A stretch of 64,000 bases of DNA from Planctomycetales bacterium 10988 (GTDB taxonomy: Bacteria > Planctomycetota > Planctomycetia > Pirellulales > Pb10988), in the NCBI GenBank assembly GCA_009664345.1, contig CP043547.1:3562709-3626708 (forward strand), read 5' to 3'. The position numbers and the translations under genes are program-made. The notes beneath the pieces were generated by a model that was not told the DNA's origin, ran no database searches, and worked only from the letters and a program-made list of their open reading frames with translations. Of this stretch, positions 1 to 46,420 are shown one piece after another; position 1 is the stretch's first letter, and every line of letters starts with the position of its first letter.

Positions 1-86
1 AACAACAGCACGCAGGGGATGGTGGCCGCGATCAAATAGGCCATCCATTCCGGAAATCCCCAGTTTTCGATTAAGCTTTCTACCAT
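1..86 (-). CDS. nuoH: NADH-quinone oxidoreductase subunit H, N-terminal fragment
   Basis: The window edge cuts this gene after about 28 codons. The start at 84-86 gives MVESLIENWGFPEWMAY, then a hydrophobic stretch (LIAATIPCVLL) that looks like a first membrane helix. It follows nuoD on the same strand after about 80 bp. NuoH is the quinone-site membrane subunit of complex I and commonly lies downstream of nuoD or nuoG. The identification rests mainly on position and hydrophobicity, since so little of the protein is visible. Confidence 0.55.
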   Translation of the reverse strand, partial: MVESLIENWGFPEWMAYLIAATIPCVLL

Positions 87-168
87 CGAAGTTGTCGCGT
101 CTTTCCAAAGGGTTGAGTCAAAAAGTAGTTTTTGTGTTTAACGCAATGCTGAAATCAATCACCAGCCG

Positions 169-1374
169 CTAGCGGTCGATCTCTCCCATCAGCAAGTCGA
201 GCGAACCGACAATCGCCGGAATGTCCGCGATCAAGCAACCATGTCCGATTTCGCCAATCACCGAAAGATTACTGAAGCAACCGCTGCGGGCACGCGCTCG
301 CAAGGGAACCGCGGTTCCATCGGAAACAATATGAAAACCCATCCAACCGCGGGAGGATTCCGTTTCCAAATACGCCTCGCCAGCGGGAAGCTTATGATTG
401 AAGCGGACCGGGATGCCGTAATCCCCGGCGGTTTGCGAATACTTGTCCATCGCCTGACGAATCAACGAGACCGATTGCACGACTTCCAGCATTCGGACAT
501 AGAAACGATGCCAGCAATCGCCTAGCTGGGCCTCTTTCGGCACCGGCGGGTAATCATAATCGTCGGGATAATGCCCGTCGCGTTCGCAAATGATTTCAAA
601 ATCGTACCCTTCATACATCCGGGTATAGATCGGTTCGCCATCGCGGCGAAGGTCGCAATCGACGCCACTTCCCCGCAAGACTGGCCCGGTGCAACCGTAG
701 CTGATCGCCATTTCTGCCGGCAAAAGTCCGATGCCTGCGGTACGCTTGACGAAAATTTGATTCGTGGTCAGCAGCGTGTGGTATTCTTCGATGTTCGGCT
801 CGAATTGATCGAGGAAGGCCTCGCATTGCTGGAGCCAGCCGGGGGGCAGATCGTGAGTCGCTCCGCCGATGGTGAGATAGCTATAAGTCAAGCGTGCCCC
901 GCAAACCGCTTCGAAGAGGTCGAGGATTTTTTCCCGTTCGCGGAAGGCATAGAGGAAAGGACTGAAAGTTCCCAAGTCGAGGCCGTAAGCCCCCATGCCC
1001 AACAGATGGCTGGCGATCCGATTCAGCTCGACGATCATCACACGGAGATGGCGGCCCTTTTCGGGAATTTCCATCTGCAAAAGTTTTTCGACGGCCAGCG
1101 ACCAGCCGAGATTCATATTCATTCCGGCCAGATAATCCATCCGATCGGTGTAAGGGATGAACTGCCGAGCGGTGAGGTTTTCGCCAATCTTTTCCGCACA
1201 GCGATGCAGATAGCCGATGTGCGGAGTGGTCTCCGAAACGATTTCTCCATCGGTTCGCAGGACCAAACGCAACACGCCGTGCGTGCTTGGATGTTGCGGC
1301 CCCATGTTGACCAACATCTCATCCGTTCGCACATCAAATTCTATCAGTCGCGGATCATCCGCTTGCATCGTCAT
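169..1374 (-). CDS. nuoD: NADH-quinone oxidoreductase subunit D
   Basis: A 401-residue 49-kDa-type subunit of complex I, of normal length for the family. It is a peripheral-arm protein that helps form the quinone pocket. Family hallmarks are MLVNMGPQHPSTHGVLR near the N-terminus, ELNRIASHLL, YEGYDFEIICERDGHYPD and the C-terminal GEIGHGCLIADIPAIVGSLDLL. It sits between nuoC and nuoH, all on the minus strand. nuoE, F and G are not next to it, so the NADH-oxidising module must be elsewhere or absent. The start at 1374 gives MTMQADDPR; the ATG two codons further in is an equally possible start. Confidence 0.96.
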   Translation of the reverse strand: MTMQADDPRLIEFDVRTDEMLVNMGPQHPSTHGVLRLVLRTDGEIVSETTPHIGYLHRCAEKIGENLTARQFIPYTDRMDYLAGMNMNLGWSLAVEKLLQMEIPEKGRHLRVMIVELNRIASHLLGMGAYGLDLGTFSPFLYAFREREKILDLFEAVCGARLTYSYLTIGGATHDLPPGWLQQCEAFLDQFEPNIEEYHTLLTTNQIFVKRTAGIGLLPAEMAISYGCTGPVLRGSGVDCDLRRDGEPIYTRMYEGYDFEIICERDGHYPDDYDYPPVPKEAQLGDCWHRFYVRMLEVVQSVSLIRQAMDKYSQTAGDYGIPVRFNHKLPAGEAYLETESSRGWMGFHIVSDGTAVPLRARARSGCFSNLSVIGEIGHGCLIADIPAIVGSLDLLMGEIDR

Positions 1375-1428
1375 CGGAAATTCCTAGCTTGGCTGAGCTT
1401 CCTCGGTGGAGACCTTTCAGGGGGCTGG

Positions 1429-1998
1429 CTAGCGGTTGCGAATGCCGTGATATTCCAGCGGCATTTCATAATCTTTGCGTAACGGGTGGCCGACCCAATC
1501 TTCCGGGCACAAAATCCGCCGTAGGTGCGGATGCCCAAGAAAGAAGATGCCCATCAAATCGTAAATCTCGCGTTCGTGCCAATCCGCGGTTCGCCAAATC
1601 GAATTCACGCTGGGAACCTCGGGGAGTTGGCCTGCTTGGTCATTTTTCCAACGCGGCAGCATCAATTTCAAAATCAGGCGGCGTTTGGAATGCGTGCTCC
1701 ACAGGTGATAAACCAATTCCAAATGCGGGTCGTATTTGAATCGTTTCGCTTTTTTTGGGTCCGGTTCGAAGTAATCCACCGCGGAAATGTTCGTCAGCAT
1801 ATCCATGTGGAACTCGGGATCGTCGCGTAGAAACCGGCAAACCGAGGCGATACTTTCAGGACGAACTTCAATCCAAGGATCAAGCACTTCGGTGGTGCAA
1901 CCGACGATCTCCTCGGGAAAGGATTTCTCCAAGGCTGGCAAGACGGTGCCTTCTAACCAACTGAGTTCAGGTTGTTCGGAGGATTCGGTTTCAGCCAT
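1429..1998 (-). CDS. nuoC: NADH-quinone oxidoreductase subunit C
   Basis: 30-kDa subunit of complex I (peripheral arm). The C-terminal half carries the family signature [18 protein letters not shown], then [20 protein letters not shown] chose the ATG at 1998 (MAETESSEQ). An in-frame TTG at 2019 would add seven residues but has no better ribosome site. It is a separate gene, not fused to nuoD as in some bacteria; about 54 bp separate the two. nuoA lies immediately upstream, so nuoB is not in its usual place. Confidence 0.95.
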
Positions 1999-2071
1999 GG
2001 TTTGCTTTGTGGGAGCCAAGGAGTTTTTCAGAAGTTTTCAAAAGACAAGGGGAAGATCGTCACGTTTTCGC

Positions 2072-2701
2072 TTAGGAAGAAACGGTCGTCAGCGGCGGTT
2101 CGCGTTCTCGGAGGGCCACCGGAGTTCGGCGAGCAGGTGCCAAACGCCTTTGAGAAGCCGCCGCCCGAACCCAATCGAGATCGCCCCGTTTCCATAGATA
2201 AAAGAAGCCTACCAGCAGAACCGCAAAGAAGACTAACAAGTCAACCATCGCGAGGCCCGCCAGTTCGCTGCCGGTGGATTGAATTTCTTGCTGTAAAGTC
2301 TCCGCTTCAGCCAGCGGGACGGCAGCGGGAACCGGGGCACTCAGCCTTTCATAAAGATGGGCCACCGCTCCATCGGGTTGCACGGTGCCGACGTCGGGAT
2401 TTTCTTGCAAAGGAACATCGGACATCATCTGCACGGCGGTTCCATAAACATTCGCCCAAGGAAAGAAGAACGCGACTTCCACATCGAAGACCAAGAACAA
2501 CAAGGCCACGACATAGAAACGCAAATCAAATTGAAAGTAGCTGCTGCCGATCGTTGGCTCGCCGCATTCGTAGATTTCTTCTTTTTCCGGATTAGGCAGC
2601 GATGGACGAAAAAGCCAACCGACCAGCAGATTGACAAAGACAAAGAGTCCGCCGACCAAGAAGAAAAAGGCTAACGTGCCGACAAAGATGGTAGGTTGCA
2701 T
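2072..2701 (-). CDS. nuoA: NADH-quinone oxidoreductase subunit A with enlarged loop
   Basis: Small membrane subunit of complex I. Helix 1 (FVGTLAFFFLVGGLFVFVNLLVG), the conserved IYECGEP segment, helix 2 (FYVVALLFLVFDVEVAFFFPW) and helix 3 (AMVDLLVFFAVLLVGFFYLW) are all visible. The protein is about 209 residues from the ATG at 2701, whereas NuoA is normally about 120-150. The extra length is a roughly 60-residue segment between helices 2 and 3 (about residues 80-135, Glu/Pro/Ala-rich) and a basic Pro/Arg-rich C-terminal tail. An upstream in-frame TTG at 2728 is less likely. First gene of a nuoA-C-D-H run. Confidence 0.92.
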   Translation of the reverse strand: MQPTIFVGTLAFFFLVGGLFVFVNLLVGWLFRPSLPNPEKEEIYECGEPTIGSSYFQFDLRFYVVALLFLVFDVEVAFFFPWANVYGTAVQMMSDVPLQENPDVGTVQPDGAVAHLYERLSAPVPAAVPLAEAETLQQEIQSTGSELAGLAMVDLLVFFAVLLVGFFYLWKRGDLDWVRAAASQRRLAPARRTPVALREREPPLTTVSS

Positions 2702-2979
2702 CCGTAGCGGGCGAGATCGCCCCTCCAACTAGCAAGAACCTATTGGGGAAAGGTCGGATTCCTCCGGCCCGGCCTCCTCAAACAAAGTAGTCCTGAAACA
2801 GCAAGCATGCCGCCTGGCGAGTCATGCCGCGATTCCTTTTTGACAACGCATCTTCCGAGCGTGTTCACTCGACGTTGAATGAATCGCATTGTATCGAGCG
2901 GAAGGGAAGGTGTTAAGGGTGGTAAAATCGACAGAAGCTTCAAGACCCGAGAATTTTGGCATTCCCTGGTAGTCCCTTG

Positions 2980-3864
2980 TTAACCAGCAAAGCGAACACT
3001 TGGAAACCCACCGACGCCGGGGCGGCAGTGGAAAATTCCCCCAGCCAGCGGTTGTTCGGGGACTTGCGATTCCTGCAAGCCCGCTCTGGCCGAAGTAATA
3101 TAAAGGTCTTCGTATTTCTCTCCGGCAAAACAGCAAGAAGTGACATTCGTGACAGGAAGTTCGATCATGGCCAGTTGTTCGCCAGTGGCCGGATTCCAGC
3201 GAGCCACTCCGCCGCCACGGAAAAGAGCCGTCCACAGCATTCCCTCTTGATCAATGGTCATGCCATCGGGTTTGCCCATCTCTTCGGGAACTTTGATAAT
3301 GGTGCGGCGATTGGAAACGGTGCCGGTCTCCAAATCAAAATCGAGGGCATCGACCTGTCGCGAGCCGGTATCGATATAGTACATCGTTTTGGCATCCGCC
3401 GACCAGGCAAGCCCATTGGAAGTGGTGACGTTTTCAATCACTCGGCGGGCGGGTTTCTCGGTCGATTCCAAGCAGTAAAGGCTGGCATCGCCGGGAGTTC
3501 GGTCATAAGAGAGCGTTCCCCCCCAGAGTCGGCCCAAAGGATCGCATTTGCCATCGTTGAAGCGATTGCGGTCAAGTCCCGCTTCCGGATTGCTGATGGG
3601 GGTTTCTCCGCCAGTTTCAAAATCCAAGCGATAAAAACCGTTGAATGTGCCTAAAATCAAATCGTTTTGCGAAGTCGGGATCGCAAAGCCGACATGGCTA
3701 TTCACTTCGCGAGATTTGTTCTCTTTCGTGACAGGATCGAAGCAATTGACGATGCTATTTTCAATATCGACCCACCACAGACATTGTCGCGGCTCATCCC
3801 AGCAGGGGCCTTCCGCCAAGAGGGCTTTGGCATCGAGGACACATTCGGCAGTCAGCTTTTCCAT
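2980..3864 (-). CDS. SMP-30/gluconolactonase/LRE family protein
   Basis: A predicted cytosolic six-bladed beta-propeller lactonase of about 294 residues, acting on sugar lactones such as gluconolactone (substrate inferred from the family). Typical segments are LLAEGPCWDEPRQCLWWVDIE at the N-terminus (with a likely metal-ligand Glu), RFNDGKCDPLGRLWGGTL, TSNGLAWSADAKTMYYIDT and KPDGMTIDQEGMLWTA; the Asn and Asp in the last two fit the divalent-metal site. The start at 3864 (MEKLTAEC) is preceded by AAAAAGGAAATC, a good ribosome site. The longer open frame to 3984 is not needed. hisG follows upstream on the same strand after 31 bp, so the two may be co-transcribed. Confidence 0.9.
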   Translation of the reverse strand: MEKLTAECVLDAKALLAEGPCWDEPRQCLWWVDIENSIVNCFDPVTKENKSREVNSHVGFAIPTSQNDLILGTFNGFYRLDFETGGETPISNPEAGLDRNRFNDGKCDPLGRLWGGTLSYDRTPGDASLYCLESTEKPARRVIENVTTSNGLAWSADAKTMYYIDTGSRQVDALDFDLETGTVSNRRTIIKVPEEMGKPDGMTIDQEGMLWTALFRGGGVARWNPATGEQLAMIELPVTNVTSCCFAGEKYEDLYITSARAGLQESQVPEQPLAGGIFHCRPGVGGFPSVRFAG

Positions 3865-3895
3865 GCGATTTCCTTTTTGGCTTTGAGGGTTTCGA

Positions 3896-4759
3896 TTAAA
3901 GCCGGCAGTTGTGAATATCCGTTTCGAGGATGGCGGTGGCCCCGAGTTGCTCCAGCTCTTCCATAATGTCTTGGACTTTGCCACGCGGAACCATCACCCG
4001 AACGGCACACCATTCGGGGTCTTCCAGAGGATTCACCGTCGGCGATTGAAAACCGGGGGCAACCTGTTCGGCGTCTTTGAGTTGTTCGCGAGGGATGTTG
4101 TATTCCAGCAATGACCAACCTCGGGCGATCACGACACCTTCGAGCCGTCGCACGATCCGGTCCGCCAGCCCGTTGAGGCGTTTCTGTTGATTCTGAATCA
4201 GGACCGTTTCGTATTTCCCGATCTCTTCGACAATACGTAACTTGTTGGCAGCCAAAGTACTTCCGGTTTCGACTAAGTCCACAATCGCATCTGCGACGCC
4301 GAGTTGAATCATTACTTCGACCGAACCGGAAAGCTCGACCAAGTGGACATTGAGGTCTTGTTTGGCAAAATGTTCCTTGGTGATTTCCGGGAAACTCGTC
4401 GCCACCCGACAGCCATCGAGGGAGTGAATGCTTTCAATCGGTCGATGATCGGGGGCACAGAGGGCCAGCCGGCAACCACCGACTCCGAGAGCCAGCCGCG
4501 TAGTCAGATCAACCCCAGCTTCTGCCACGAGATCGCTACCGGTCACGCCCAGATCAATGGCCCCTTCGGCACAAAGCACCGGGATGTCATCGGTTCGCAA
4601 GAAGACCAAATCCACCGGCATATCTCGGACCTTGGTGAACAAGGCTCGATTCTGACGACGAAAGCTAAGTCCTGCCTGATTCAAGAGATCGGCAACAATC
4701 GGTTCCAGGCGGCCTTTGCTCGGCACGCCGATGCGTAGCGTATCCGTATCTCCACTCAC
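3896..4759 (-). CDS. hisG: ATP phosphoribosyltransferase, long form
   Basis: First enzyme of histidine biosynthesis: it joins ATP and PRPP to form phosphoribosyl-ATP. At 287 residues it is the long (HisG-L) form, with a periplasmic-binding-like catalytic core (LRIGVPSKGRLEPI near the N-terminus, IDLGVTGSDLVAEAGVDL, and the PRPP-loop-like VADAIVDLVETGSTL) and a C-terminal ACT-like regulatory domain (about residues 210-287). That domain is where histidine feedback usually acts, so no HisZ partner is needed. Translation starts at GTG 4759, with GAGGAA five bases ahead. hisE follows upstream on the same strand after 130 bp. Confidence 0.96.
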   Translation of the reverse strand: MSGDTDTLRIGVPSKGRLEPIVADLLNQAGLSFRRQNRALFTKVRDMPVDLVFLRTDDIPVLCAEGAIDLGVTGSDLVAEAGVDLTTRLALGVGGCRLALCAPDHRPIESIHSLDGCRVATSFPEITKEHFAKQDLNVHLVELSGSVEVMIQLGVADAIVDLVETGSTLAANKLRIVEEIGKYETVLIQNQQKRLNGLADRIVRRLEGVVIARGWSLLEYNIPREQLKDAEQVAPGFQSPTVNPLEDPEWCAVRVMVPRGKVQDIMEELEQLGATAILETDIHNCRL

Positions 4760-41072: not shown

Positions 41073-41208
41073 TCCCGCCTGTTTGGAAGAGGAGTTTCAC
41101 GATTGCCTGTGAACGATCGCTAACTCCAGCCTACCGTTATTGTCTCAAGTTTGAGATTTGGGGACGCGCGCTGCCCCTACCCAATGTGTGAGAAGGAGAC
41201 TCCAGTCA

Positions 41209-42117
41209 ATGAAGTGGAACAAAGTGCTTGGAGCGATGTTCCTCAGCATCTGTCTCGCTAGCCAAGGCTATAGCTTTGACTTGCTCGACAAAATGTTGGG
41301 AATGAAGCACAGTGGCTGTGGTTCGTCCTGCTGTGAGCCCGCTTGTTGCGAGCCAGTTTGTGCCGAACCGACTTGTTGTGAACCCGTTTGCTGCGAACCG
41401 ACTTGCTGCGAACCCGTTTGCTGCGAACCGATCTGCTGTGAACCCGCTTGCTGCGAACCAGTTTGTGCCGAACCCGCTTGCTGCGAACCGGCCTGCTGCG
41501 AACCCGTTTGCTGCGAACCGACCTGCTGTGAACCCGTTTGCTGCGAACCTGCTTGCTGTGAGCCGGTCTGCTGCGAACCTGCTTGCTGCGAACCCGTCTG
41601 CTGCGAACCCTGCGGATGTGACACTGGCTGCAAGAAGAAATTGAATCTGTTCGAAGGCCTCAAAGGTCTTTTCTGCAAAAAGAAAAGCTGCTGCGGTTGT
41701 GAAGAACCTGTCTGCTGCGAACCGGCCTGCTGTGAGCCCGTCTGCTGCGAACCTGCTTGCTGTGAGCCGGTCTGCTGCGAACCCGCTTGCTGCGAACCTG
41801 TCTGCTGCGAACCGGAAATGGTCGGTTGCGATCCTTGCGGTTGCGAACCTTCCTGCAAAAAGAAGCTTTCTTTAGGTGACATGCTCGGCAAACTCTTCGG
41901 CAAGAAGAAAAGCTGCTGCACCAGCTGCACGACCTGCGATAGCTGCACCACCTACAGTGCTGCTCCGGTCTACCACGAAGTAGCTCCCGAGCCAGCTCCG
42001 GCTGCTCCTGCTGCTCCGGAAGCTGACGACGATGCCGCTCCCATGCCTCCGAAAGTCGGCATGATGCGAGATCGTTCGGCTTCTTTCCGAGCCGCTGGCT
42101 ACCGTCAAGCTCGCTAA
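41209..42117 (+). CDS. exported cysteine-rich protein with CCEPX pentapeptide repeats
   Basis: A 302-residue protein starting at ATG 41209 (AAGGAG ten bases ahead). It has a Sec signal (VLGAMFLSICLASQGYS), then three copies of a short Leu/Lys linker (FDLLDKMLGMKHSGC; LNLFEGLKGLFCKKKSCC; LSLGDMLGKLFGKKKSCC). These separate two blocks of CCEP-[VATI] pentads: about 19 units at residues 41-135 (two are CAEP) and about 7 at 168-205. The tail is Ala/Pro-rich and cysteine-free. The repeat is visible in DNA as a 15-bp unit. No family recognised. Planctomycete walls are known to hold cystine-rich protein, so a disulfide-linked envelope protein is plausible; metal binding is an alternative. A terminator follows. 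Confidence 0.88.
   Translation: MKWNKVLGAMFLSICLASQGYSFDLLDKMLGMKHSGCGSSCCEPACCEPVCAEPTCCEPVCCEPTCCEPVCCEPICCEPACCEPVCAEPACCEPACCEPVCCEPTCCEPVCCEPACCEPVCCEPACCEPVCCEPCGCDTGCKKKLNLFEGLKGLFCKKKSCCGCEEPVCCEPACCEPVCCEPACCEPVCCEPACCEPVCCEPEMVGCDPCGCEPSCKKKLSLGDMLGKLFGKKKSCCTSCTTCDSCTTYSAAPVYHEVAPEPAPAAPAAPEADDDAAPMPPKVGMMRDRSASFRAAGYRQAR
41329..41612 (+). repeat. 15-bp coding minisatellite, block 1 (CCEPX)
   Basis: About 19 tandem 15-bp units of the form TGC TGC GAA CCN GNN, with mostly synonymous variation (TGT/TGC, CCC/CCG/CCA) and a V/A/T/I choice at position five. Two units read TGT GCC GAA. A second block of about seven units lies at roughly 41713-41815. Confidence 0.9.
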
Positions 42118-42157
42118 GCTTGACTGAAGCGAACAGCTTCAACAGCTAAGAGATAGA

Positions 42158-42200
42158 AATAGACCTGCTTGGACAAGTTCTGGGCAGGTCTATTTTCTTT
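42158..42200 (+). terminator. intrinsic terminator
   Basis: AATAGACCTGC (42158-42168) pairs with GCAGGTCTATT (42184-42194), followed by a T-rich run. It lies 41 bp after the Cys-rich gene and should uncouple it from the next operon. Confidence 0.85.
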
Positions 42201-42615: not shown

Positions 42616-45273
42616 ATGTCACCTGAGGAAGCTTCCAAATCGATCCCCGCAGGTGCCGTGCCTCCAGCGGGAGTCGATGCACAGAAAAAAAAGAAGCTTG
42701 GTATCTTTGAGAGCTATCAAGTCGGGACAGGGGGCTATGACGAGATGTTCTCCGCTCCCGGCGTGGTCCGGCCCGCCTATTTGCCTTTTTTCTCCAATGT
42801 CGAGAAATTAGGCTCGGATCGCTTGCGTGCTCGTTGGGAACGTGCTCAACACAATCTGCGAGATATCGGCGTCACGTACACGATTTACAATGACCGGCAA
42901 GAAAATAACCGTCCTTGGGAACTCGATCCGATTCCCTTAATTCTGCACGAGAATGAATGGCGGCATTTAGAAAAAGGGATTCAACAGCGGGCGTTTCTCC
43001 TCAATGCCTTGCTGCACGATCTCTATGGAACGCAGCGAATTCTGCAACAAGCGTTATTGCCGCCGGAGCTGATTTACGCCCATCCGAATTTCCTCCGGGC
43101 TTGCCACAACATCCGTATTCCCGATGATCGCCCGCTTCAGATCTATTCCGTCGATTTAGCCCGGAATCATCAAGGCCAGTGGACCGTCTTTAGCGATCGT
43201 ACCCAAGCCCCGTCCGGAGCAGGATACGCTTTGGAAAACCGGACGATCGTCTCGGACATTCTTTCCGAGGCTTTTCAAGAATGTAAAGTCGAACGCCTGG
43301 CAGCCTATTTCCGTCGTTTGAAGGAAACCCTCTTCCACTTGGCTCGACGCCATCAGGAAAACCCCCGCGTCGTCTTGCTCTCTTCCGGACCCCATAACGA
43401 AACCTATTTCGAACATTTTTATCTTGCTCGCTACCTTGGGTTTACGCTGTCGCAAGGGGCGGACCTGACAGTTCGTGATGGCCAAATTTTCTTGAAAACG
43501 TTGGAAGGCCTGCTGCCGGTCGATGTCATTTTACGTCGGCAAGATGATGATTATTGCGATCCCCTGGAACTCAATCGCTATTCGGTTCTCGGAGTCGCCG
43601 GGCTGACGCAAGCCGTCCGTGAAGGGAATGTTTCAATCGCCAATGCCCTCGGTAGCGGCTGGTGCGAAAGCCCCGCTGTTTTGGCATTTTTGCCGGCAAT
43701 TAGTCGGGCTTTCCTGGGCGAAGAGCTTATCCTTCCCTCGGTGCCGACGTGGTGGTTAGGTGACAAGAAAGCCTTGCAGCATGTCCTTTCCGATTTCGGC
43801 AGGTATGTGATTAAGCCCTCGTTTCCGCATTTTCAACGGCAGAACTTCTTTGTTTCGCAACTTGATTTGAAAGACCGCGAACGCCTCATTCAGCGGATCA
43901 AGGCGAATCCGGCCAGCTACGTCGCCCAGGAGCAACTTCCTCTTTCGACGATGCCGATTTGGAATAGCGGAACTCCGGTCCCTCGAAGAATCTGTTTCCG
44001 AGCCTATGCCACCGGTACCCAACAACGCGAAGGAGAATCGGCGAACTCGACTGGTTACGATCAATACTTTGTCCTCCGAGGCGGTTTGACCCGTGTGACC
44101 AACGGGGCGGATTCGTTGGTTTCCTCCATGCAACAAGGAGGAGGAAGTAAGGACACTTGGATCACCAGCGAGCGACCGCGTCCGCATATTAGCCTTCTTC
44201 CCCCGAACAAACACGATTTGCCCCTGCGACGAAGTGGCATGGCCCTCAGCAGTCGGGTGGCGGACAATATGTTCTGGCTGGGTCGTTATATTGAACGTGT
44301 CGGCGGCTTGACTCGGACCTTGCGATACCTGGCGATGCGATTTAGTTCGGAAGACAACATCAACCTTGCCCCGGAAATTCGCCCGATTCTCTATCACCTT
44401 CGTGAGTTAGGGTATTTGCCAAGCTACGTGCGGCATCCCAATCACAACGAACTGCCGATGCCAGCTCAATGCGAACGGGAACTGCTGCAAATTGTCCATG
44501 GCAATGAACAAGGTCACCTTCGCCGCACCCTCCAACTTGCCCAACAGATTGCCTCGCAAGTCCGCGATACCGTTTCGATCGATGCTTGGCGAATCGCCTA
44601 TCGGCTGACGAGTGATATTCCGGCGCAGCCCACCGGGCCGCACTATCGCTTCGTCGATACCGTTGACATTCTCAACAATCTGATTTTCACCATCGCGGCC
44701 TTTAGTGGAACGAGTACCGAGAGCATGACCCGCGGCCCTGGCTGGGTGTTTTTGGATATCGGCGTGCGGCTTGAACGGGCGTTGCATACTTCGCGGCTGT
44801 TGGCCAACTGCATCGGTGGCAAGACGTTACAAGAAGAAGGCCCCTTGCTGGAAGCCCTCTTGGAAATCGCCGATAGCCGGATGACGTACCGTTCGCGGTA
44901 CCTCAATGCTATGCGACTTGTCCCCGCGATTGACTTGCTGGTGACCGATGAAAGCAACCCTCGTTCGATTGCTTTTCAACTTGTTGAACTCAATTCGCAT
45001 GTGGCCCGACTGCCGCGAGAACGCAACTTGCCCCGACTAGCTCCAGAGGAACGAATCACGCTCGATTTGCAAACCCGCTTTCGCTTGGCGGATGTCGCGA
45101 CGCTTTGCGAATTGAACACTAGTCAACGCTCGACGATTACCCCGATTTCCGGCCAACGTGCCCGATTGGCGGAATTCCTCGATGACATTCCCAAGAAGAT
45201 GGCCGAACTCTCCGACATTCTCAGCCAACGCTACTTCAATCATGCCATCTCCACCCGACACGATTCTTTATGA
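42616..45273 (+). CDS. circularly permuted ATP-grasp and alpha-E fusion protein
   Basis: A 885-residue cytosolic protein fusing two domains that are often separate genes. Residues about 30-490 match the circularly permuted type 2 ATP-grasp family (formerly DUF404/DUF407): GGYDEMFSAPGVVRPAYLPFF, RAFLLNALLHDLYG, AQEQLPLSTMP and an RxxxxxTG-like end. From about 540 (ALSSRVADNMFWLGRYIERV) to 870 it is the all-helical alpha-E domain (formerly DUF403), opening with the family signature. These proteins are predicted amidoligases that form peptide-like bonds using ATP and usually occur with a transglutaminase, as here (next gene). The substrate is unknown. Confidence 0.93.
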   Translation: MSPEEASKSIPAGAVPPAGVDAQKKKKLGIFESYQVGTGGYDEMFSAPGVVRPAYLPFFSNVEKLGSDRLRARWERAQHNLRDIGVTYTIYNDRQENNRPWELDPIPLILHENEWRHLEKGIQQRAFLLNALLHDLYGTQRILQQALLPPELIYAHPNFLRACHNIRIPDDRPLQIYSVDLARNHQGQWTVFSDRTQAPSGAGYALENRTIVSDILSEAFQECKVERLAAYFRRLKETLFHLARRHQENPRVVLLSSGPHNETYFEHFYLARYLGFTLSQGADLTVRDGQIFLKTLEGLLPVDVILRRQDDDYCDPLELNRYSVLGVAGLTQAVREGNVSIANALGSGWCESPAVLAFLPAISRAFLGEELILPSVPTWWLGDKKALQHVLSDFGRYVIKPSFPHFQRQNFFVSQLDLKDRERLIQRIKANPASYVAQEQLPLSTMPIWNSGTPVPRRICFRAYATGTQQREGESANSTGYDQYFVLRGGLTRVTNGADSLVSSMQQGGGSKDTWITSERPRPHISLLPPNKHDLPLRRSGMALSSRVADNMFWLGRYIERVGGLTRTLRYLAMRFSSEDNINLAPEIRPILYHLRELGYLPSYVRHPNHNELPMPAQCERELLQIVHGNEQGHLRRTLQLAQQIASQVRDTVSIDAWRIAYRLTSDIPAQPTGPHYRFVDTVDILNNLIFTIAAFSGTSTESMTRGPGWVFLDIGVRLERALHTSRLLANCIGGKTLQEEGPLLEALLEIADSRMTYRSRYLNAMRLVPAIDLLVTDESNPRSIAFQLVELNSHVARLPRERNLPRLAPEERITLDLQTRFRLADVATLCELNTSQRSTITPISGQRARLAEFLDDIPKKMAELSDILSQRYFNHAISTRHDSL

Positions 45274-45313
45274 GTGGACGGTGGACAGTGGGGTGTGAAG
45301 AGTGAGGATCGGT
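45272..45313 (+). repeat. G-rich 7-bp periodic array, left arm of locus 3
   Basis: Heptads with T-G at positions 4-5: GAGTGGA, CGGTGGA, CAGTGGG, GTGTGAA, GAGTGAG, starting at 45272 with T at 45275, 45282, 45289, 45296, 45303. It begins inside the TGA stop codon of the ATP-grasp gene. The same unit family as the left arm of locus 1; the two share TGAAGAGTGAGG. Confidence 0.8.
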
Positions 45314-45410
45314 GAAATTGGATTGGTAGTGATGACTTTATAAGATGAATAACCAAACGAATTCAATCAATAGAAACGTATAAAAGTTGTGGGGACGGCC
45401 CGGAAAACAA

Positions 45411-45444
45411 AACTCCCCACCGCCCACACACCACCCCCACCCGA
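45411..45444 (-). repeat. C-rich 7-bp periodic array, right arm of locus 3
   Basis: Units such as CCCACCG, CCCACAC and ACCACCC, with A every seven bases (45414, 45421, 45428, 45435) and a final six-base step. On the minus strand the unit is xxGTGGG-like, close to the left arm. It ends seven bases before the transglutaminase ATG and occupies the place of a ribosome-binding site. Confidence 0.7.
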
Positions 45445-45451
45445 GAAAACC

Positions 45452-46420
45452 ATGTTGTACGAAGTTCGCCACATAACGACTTATGAATACAAGGCTTCGG
45501 TCTCGTCGTGTCATAATTTGGCCCATCTGCGGCCCCGCAATATGCCGAACCAGCAGGTTTCTCGCTTCCGGTTGAAGATCACGCCGGAGCCTTCGCGGAA
45601 GCTTTCGCGGCTTGATTATTATGGCAATGAGACCCATTACGCCGCCGTGCAATATCCCCATAGTGAGTTGACCTTCGAAGCCGAAAGCAGGGTGAATGTC
45701 GTCAAACCTGAGATGGCCGATCCGAAAACGACGCCTCCTTGGGAGGATGTCCGCCGCTTGCCGGGTCAGGTGAATCCGATCTATCCGTATGATATCCTTG
45801 ACTTTACGTTTGCTTCGCCGCTCATTACGCTGGAGCCGGAGGCCTTGGAATATGCCAAGCAAACTTTTACTCCCCGGCGGCCTTTGCTTGAAGGCGTAAT
45901 CGAACTCACCTCTCGCATTCACAAAGATTTTCAATATAAGCCGGGAGCGACGACCGTTAGCAGCACGATTAAGGAAATCTTTTCCAAGCGGCTAGGCGTC
46001 TGTCAGGACTTTGCCCATTTGGAAATTGCCTGCCTGCGGAGTTTGGGCCTTCCGGCCAGATATGTCAGTGGTTATCTGCGAACGATTCCGCCTCCGGGGC
46101 AACCTCGCCTTCAAGGGGCGGATGCCTCGCATGCTTGGGTAGCGGTCTTCTGTCCAGGAACCGGCTGGATTGCCATCGATCCGACGAATGATGTCTTGAC
46201 CGCCACGGACCATATCACCGTCGGTTGGGGTCGCGACTATGCTGACGTTGCTCCGGTGACGGGGGCCTTTATCGGCGGAAACTCCAGCATTGTCCGTGTT
46301 GGGGTCGATGTGATTCCTCAAGAAGAGTTGCAAGACGCCGCTTTTCAACAGCAATCGCAGTCAATCCTCGATTCCTCCAATGGCAACATCATTCCCGAGC
46401 CGCCCGACCTGCCCGCATAA
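45452..46420 (+). CDS. transglutaminase-like cysteine protein
   Basis: A 322-residue protein with an N-terminal beta domain of the bacterial transglutaminase-like family (YEVRHITTYEYKASVSSCHNLAHLRPR) and the papain-like core. The triad is visible: Cys184 in LGVCQDFAHLEIACLRSLG, His227 in ADASHAWVAVF, and Asp in GWIAIDPTND. No signal peptide. It may cleave or cross-link the peptide-like product of the preceding ATP-grasp/alpha-E protein, with which it forms a typical pair. The start at 45452 has no Shine-Dalgarno match because a C-rich array sits directly upstream. The open frame extends to 45389, but the extension is that array translated. Confidence 0.93.
   Translation: MLYEVRHITTYEYKASVSSCHNLAHLRPRNMPNQQVSRFRLKITPEPSRKLSRLDYYGNETHYAAVQYPHSELTFEAESRVNVVKPEMADPKTTPPWEDVRRLPGQVNPIYPYDILDFTFASPLITLEPEALEYAKQTFTPRRPLLEGVIELTSRIHKDFQYKPGATTVSSTIKEIFSKRLGVCQDFAHLEIACLRSLGLPARYVSGYLRTIPPPGQPRLQGADASHAWVAVFCPGTGWIAIDPTNDVLTATDHITVGWGRDYADVAPVTGAFIGGNSSIVRVGVDVIPQEELQDAAFQQQSQSILDSSNGNIIPEPPDLPA

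Follow-up and report, generated by a model that had tools for sequence, protein, structure and literature searches.

Planctomycete cell walls have been described as disulfide-bonded protein sacculi (PMC2754498) that resist boiling in SDS (PMC3422733), and wall preparations from planctomycetes contain Cys-rich YTV proteins (PMC8567305). What keeps this SDS-resistant envelope together is a long-standing question, and the candidates named for it are mainly the YTV proteins. Very high Cys contents are known from the hair keratin-associated proteins (KRTAPs), with about 20-50% Cys in the HS-KRTAP subfamilies (PMC2528016). KRTAPs are intracellular matrix proteins that carry no signal peptide. One study describes them as mammal-specific (PMC12101200). 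Here we describe a family of capped, Cys-rich proteins of the Pirellulales, apparently exported, that provides a concrete second candidate besides YTV.

The window, a 64,000-nucleotide stretch of the genome of Planctomycetales bacterium 10988, contains a complete reading frame for such a protein (Table 1), present and translated as an earlier sequence-only reading had given it. The gene is single copy in its own genome; a second match there (L002) was rejected as an unrelated ORF of pentapeptide-repeat/MORN-like appearance. The protein contains 68 Cys residues (22.5% overall). As had been reported, the translation shows two Cys blocks and an acidic Ala/Pro tail, and a last Cys cluster sits between linker 2 and the tail. 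The earlier count of about 26 CCEPX units stands at 26 only if two CAEPx units are included with the 24 CCEPx units; these are split 19 + 7 between the blocks. The measured Cys fractions of 0.39 (block 1) and 0.40 (block 2) agree with the two in five residues noted before. The variable position x is V in 11 units, A in 9, T in 3, and I, E and C in one each. Autocorrelation of the Cys positions has its peaks at 5 and 10 residues, with 49 Cys pairs at distance 5 and only 3 at distance 2. When the mature protein was shuffled 20,000 times, CCEP occurred on average 0.27 times and at most 3 times. Two of three previously proposed Leu/Lys linkers are true Lys-flanked linkers, whereas the third is the similar segment at the N-terminus that forms the N-terminal cap.

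Table 1 Features of the Cys-repeat gene and its flanks (window coordinates).
Feature	Position	Strand	Basis or remark
Conserved leader: strong Shine-Dalgarno AAGGAGAC, spacer, ATG start	41192..41211	+	Family comparison
Complete CDS	41209..42117	+	302 aa + stop; ORF listing, translation
Signal-peptide-like N-terminus MKWNKVLGAMFLSICLASQGYS, no lipobox	41209..41274	+	Hydropathy scan, model helix, family pattern
N-terminal cap FDLLDKMLGMK, short amphipathic helix	41275..41307	+	45/46 members by pattern; helix 22-29
Cys block 1, 19 C(C/A)EPx units	41329..41613	+	Repeat count, tandem-repeat scan
Linker 1, CKKKLNLFEGLKGLFCKKKSCCGC	41629..41700	+	Lys-flanked, Leu/basic
Cys block 2, 7 CCEPx units	41713..41817	+	Repeat count, tandem-repeat scan
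Linker 2, CKKKLSLGDMLGKLFGKKKSCC	41854..41919	+	Lys-flanked
Ala/Pro/acidic tail with C-terminal cap AAPMPPK...DRSAS...R	41953..42114	+	C-cap in 44/46 members
Intrinsic-terminator-like hairpin, 18 pairs, then T tract	42156..42196	+	Terminator scan

The signal peptide of the sequence-only reading is borne out, by sequence and hydropathy, as a signal-like N-terminus. This segment has a hydrophobic core and a model helix at residues 2-17, its pattern is kept in the family, and it is probably a signal of the Sec type. Lipoprotein anchoring was considered and rejected: the family motif LCSQ has no small residue before the Cys, and in the window protein Ala replaces that Cys. The AlphaFold model is uninformative overall (pLDDT 49.9) and confident only for two N-terminal helices.

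The feature that defines the family is its conserved caps and not CCEPx. Among the 46 members read (208-340 aa; Cys 13-28%, median 21%), mean pairwise identity is 0.53 over the first 36 residues and 0.46 over the last 36. The N-terminal consensus is MKW...GALVVSVGLCSQSFGFELLDRMLG, the N-terminal cap is conserved as SQSFGFELLDRMLG, and the N-cap, typically SQSFGF[ED]LLDRMLG, is recognized by pattern in all members but one. The C-terminal consensus reads AAPMPPAPxxDPSAS...RRVVQAS..VR (also RRVxQAS), and within the C-cap the Asp and Ala columns are 100% conserved (invariant alignment columns D288 and A291). The window protein carries both caps in a variant form (FDLLDKMLG; AAPMPPK...DRSAS). By contrast, the repeat motif varies between genera and includes CCEP, CCEK/CCEE, CCEAP, CGAP, CDPGCGVE and CAAP, among others. 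Leu/basic linkers, as recognized by a loose pattern, number one to three in each of 44/44 members. Retention of the caps while the repeats turn over is the pattern expected if Cys density, and not the exact sequence, is selected; CCEPx would then be one local form of a rule under which Cys density and the ends are kept.

The main new result is this family, of which the sequence-only reading, with too narrow a scope, had captured one ORF. A scan of a genome collection recovered full-length relatives from Rhodopirellula, Aporhodopirellula, Neorhodopirellula and Pirellulales metagenome-assembled genomes (MAGs), and the planctomycete origin proposed for the DNA is supported by its placement in the same order as the Rhodopirellula and Neorhodopirellula loci. 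Homologues are not confined to one strain: a profile built from eight members (E ≤ 1e-6) matched 211/297 Pirellulales genomes, 159/206 of the high-quality genomes and 100/122 genera, leaving ~30% of the genomes with no match. When 20 of the negatives were re-tested with a wider profile at E ≤ 0.01, 14 matched, some of them as full members with both caps, and 6 again gave no match. The family is thus nearly order-wide, but not universal, in the Pirellulales. In a phylum-wide draw, 17/292 genomes matched, 11 from the same order (own genome included) and six from one family (f21) of the same class. The six f21 relatives are shorter. They carry Cys repeats, and AGLF follows their signal segment; the C-cap is absent from the frames read. 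Among the genomes searched, with limited sampling within the phylum, the caps occur only in planctomycetes.

By TRF, the array itself is a tandem repeat at the DNA level (periods 15 and 30 nt), and a GSQQ-type antisense frame (41268-41951, minus strand) is open across it, as antisense frames often are across the family. These features would fit an array that is a low-complexity DNA expansion, or an antisense frame that is the true gene. Pairs of the 24 CCEP units have on average 1.64 differences, every one of them at a third codon position and none at the first or second, which shows coding constraint. However, the antisense frame has the same third positions, the changes are synonymous in both frames and carry no strand information, and this variation was dropped as proof of strand. 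The plus strand was instead assigned because the plus-strand caps, start and AAGGAG leader are conserved and a terminator is present, at the 3´ end of the plus-strand gene. Both caps lie outside the array, and they, the start, the leader and the signal-like segment persist order-wide although the repeat motifs differ. Here the open antisense stretch is nested in the sense gene and spans only ~75% of it. On the strength of family conservation, the antisense ORF was rejected as the real gene and an array artefact is effectively excluded, and we give this alternative as a whole a negligible probability.

In Pfam, the window protein matches only keratin-associated models, Keratin_B2_2 (PF13885; 97 bits against a cut-off of 27 bits, 5.7e-28) and Keratin_B2 (PF01500; 46.6 bits against 28.7 bits, 4.7e-12). 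Since few relatives match these models (6/44 and 2/44, respectively), the match reflects the composition of the CCEP-type members. The window protein shares with the high- and ultrahigh-sulfur KRTAPs of hair CCxPx-like pentapeptides, high Cys and a proposed disulfide matrix role. Unlike the mammalian KRTAPs, it is bacterial, begins with a signal-like segment and has distinct caps at both ends as well as basic Leu linkers; outside the repeats no kinship with KRTAPs was seen. We thus conclude that the likeness is convergence on a CCxPx design and not kinship, the design of hair having evolved independently in planctomycetes. The YTV wall proteins (PF07639) are similarly of exported type, repetitive, Cys-bearing, planctomycete-specific and encoded in the same genomes. 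However, Cys makes up 7% of the YTV ORF read, at about one residue per repeat, compared to 22.5% of the window protein, the genes are unlinked, and Pfam finds no YTV domain in the window protein or its 44 relatives. The chlamydiae, whose peptidoglycan is atypical and whose phylum is related through the PVC group, have OmcB and OmcA as cysteine-rich, disulfide-linked envelope proteins. We know of no CCEPx-type pentapeptide repeats in either; the analogy is one of function only, and the relatives have no Pfam match to such families. The animal protein CREMP, which has Cys-rich repeats and belongs to the eggshell membrane, a proteinaceous sheet outside the cell, can also be likened to the window protein (PMC3068167). 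Searches gave no credible NCBIfam model, no match among PDB sequences and, for the repeat strings, nothing relevant in the open literature searched. The suggestion of a new class holds in that no Pfam, NCBIfam or PDB family describes capped Cys-repeat proteins. The Pirellulales family, with no curated model, appears to be new, although members may be mentioned as "hypothetical protein" or in proteome lists.

An SD-like motif lies within 18 nt of the start in 44/44 family genes. The extended leader, AAAGGAGACGTTGCTCGATG (e.g., window 41192-41211 and L047:6986-7003), is kept order-wide and goes well beyond a plain ribosome-binding site, reaching 18-20 nt upstream of the start; its exact consensus occurs only once per locus in each of 34 loci. 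The strength and conservation of this leader suggest that expression is high or regulated. GGAG-CTC pairing is possible in the leaders of some members. Leader RNA folding was no better than that of shuffles, and Rfam gave no applicable family for the 5´ leader; a mir-2756 match (25.4 bits, cut-off 61 bits) was dismissed as chance.

Because the upstream neighbor, an epimerase gene, is on the opposite strand and a terminator follows the CDS, the gene is read as a single-gene unit. Directly downstream (42616-46420, plus strand) are a gene for a circularly permuted ATP-grasp/Alpha-E fusion and then a transglutaminase-like gene. An operon with these genes was rejected, as the terminator lies between and they are not recurrent neighbors in other genomes. 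Across families of the order, the family gene is often found beside an opposite-strand cupin-like gene and BamB/PQQ-propeller genes. Several loci (L003/L004/L007/L010 about 1-4400, L048, L062, L069) have two conserved, paired genes for BamB/PQQ-like propellers together with a small cupin-like protein, which contains an ACPCG.ARRA motif and has no Pfam match; on the other side there is often a 388-aa gene, also with no Pfam match. In the window genome the cupin gene is ~1.16 Mb from the CCEPx gene. The window gene is therefore an independent unit, and the cupin/BamB/PQQ context was set aside as inherited synteny and not a functional clue. No recognized wall gene is among the conserved neighbors.

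The genome also encodes VKOR and DsbA domains fused in one 472-aa ORF. YTV is represented by 21 domain matches across two ORFs, and the 811-aa YTV frame that was read contains 58 Cys, mostly in YTVC-type repeats. All of the 42 order genomes tested for YTV contained it, whether or not they matched the Cys-repeat family strongly, and the Cys-repeat protein is thus an additional component and not a YTV substitute. In a search with a single Pfam family of this genome, judged 95.6% complete, Mur_ligase_M matched only FolC and a degenerate MurE-like ORF (identities by reading the sequences), so that the genome seems to lack canonical Mur ligases. The P-loop region of the MurE-like ORF (G000:C1 about 1022711-1023274; L144) reads GRQGKRS, compared to the usual G-x-N-G-K-T. 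The VKOR-DsbA fusion, YTV and the apparent lack of canonical Mur ligases lend indirect support to a disulfide-linked envelope.

From anatomy, conservation and genomic company, we infer that the protein is fairly probably an exported envelope matrix protein that is oxidized by VKOR-DsbA and cross-linked by disulfides, with caps and linkers that dock it. The single-gene product would be exported by Sec and its signal peptide cleaved. Its Cys blocks would be flexible, Pro-broken matrix segments that form disulfides, by analogy with the CCxPx repeats of hair KRTAPs, and the VKOR-DsbA fusion would oxidize them outside the cytoplasm. The blocks could then cross-link mutually, through inter- and intramolecular disulfides, and probably also to YTV or other wall proteins that contain Cys. 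The specific binding parts that position the protein may be its two conserved ends, the helix at the N-terminus and the C-terminal cap, and the basic amphipathic linkers. An envelope role fits the reports of disulfide-bonded, SDS-resistant sacculi with YTV (PMC2754498, PMC3422733, PMC8567305). Against it we count the order genomes with no match, in contrast to YTV, which all 42 genomes tested contain, the lack of a wall-gene neighbor, the low pLDDT of the model and the single-family scope of the Mur search. Routine tryptic proteomics could easily miss the protein, whose Cys blocks lack Lys and Arg and may be hard to solubilize.

The sequence-only reading had also raised a thiol metal sponge. 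Such an exported sponge, or a periplasmic protein akin to metallothioneins, would protect the cell by binding soft metals (Zn, Cu, Cd, Hg) through CC pairs with Glu. Metallothioneins have CxC-rich Cys arrays and are usually small and cytosolic. The very high Cys content with adjacent Glu would suit such a role, but at 302 aa with a signal-like N-terminus the window protein differs from them, has no Pfam metallothionein match, and rarely shows the metallothionein-typical CxC spacing. The signal-like N-terminus would also direct it to a compartment with VKOR-DsbA, where thiols tend to oxidation. No metal resistance, transport or handling gene is recognizable among the conserved neighbors, and the nearly order-wide spread is unlike that of an accessory resistance trait. 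The suggestion has found no positive support, and we regard it as improbable.

Some Pirellulales, such as R. baltica, are sessile, budding and equipped with a holdfast substance (PMC2754498), and the protein could instead be a secreted component of an extracellular matrix, holdfast or stalk/fimbria, a disulfide-cured glue for the sessile stage. A repetitive, Cys-rich protein with a signal-like N-terminus and basic amphipathic linkers is compatible with this role, as is a family that is not universal in the order. However, genes for an export system, a pilus or polysaccharides were not recognized in the conserved neighborhoods, and neither Pfam nor NCBIfam recognized a C-terminal sorting domain; we consider this role unlikely.

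Returning to the envelope matrix protein, a more speculative extension, which we hold only tentatively, is a two-component disulfide wall that parallels hair, with long YTV proteins as the regular fibers, the capped Cys-repeat proteins as an ultrahigh-sulfur matrix, and VKOR-DsbA as the curing enzyme, in which Cys density and caps are selected while the motif drifts, and in which the Pirellulales may lack canonical peptidoglycan ligases, as the window genome seems to.

Other short, Cys-rich, exported-looking planctomycete proteins (L012:5004-5435, L013:4833-5366, L014:4818-5381, L123, L128 and L131) carry CCEP, CCAPEP or CGCAAP repeats between ends unlike those of the family, which suggests that planctomycetes have several independent or distantly related Cys-repeat families.
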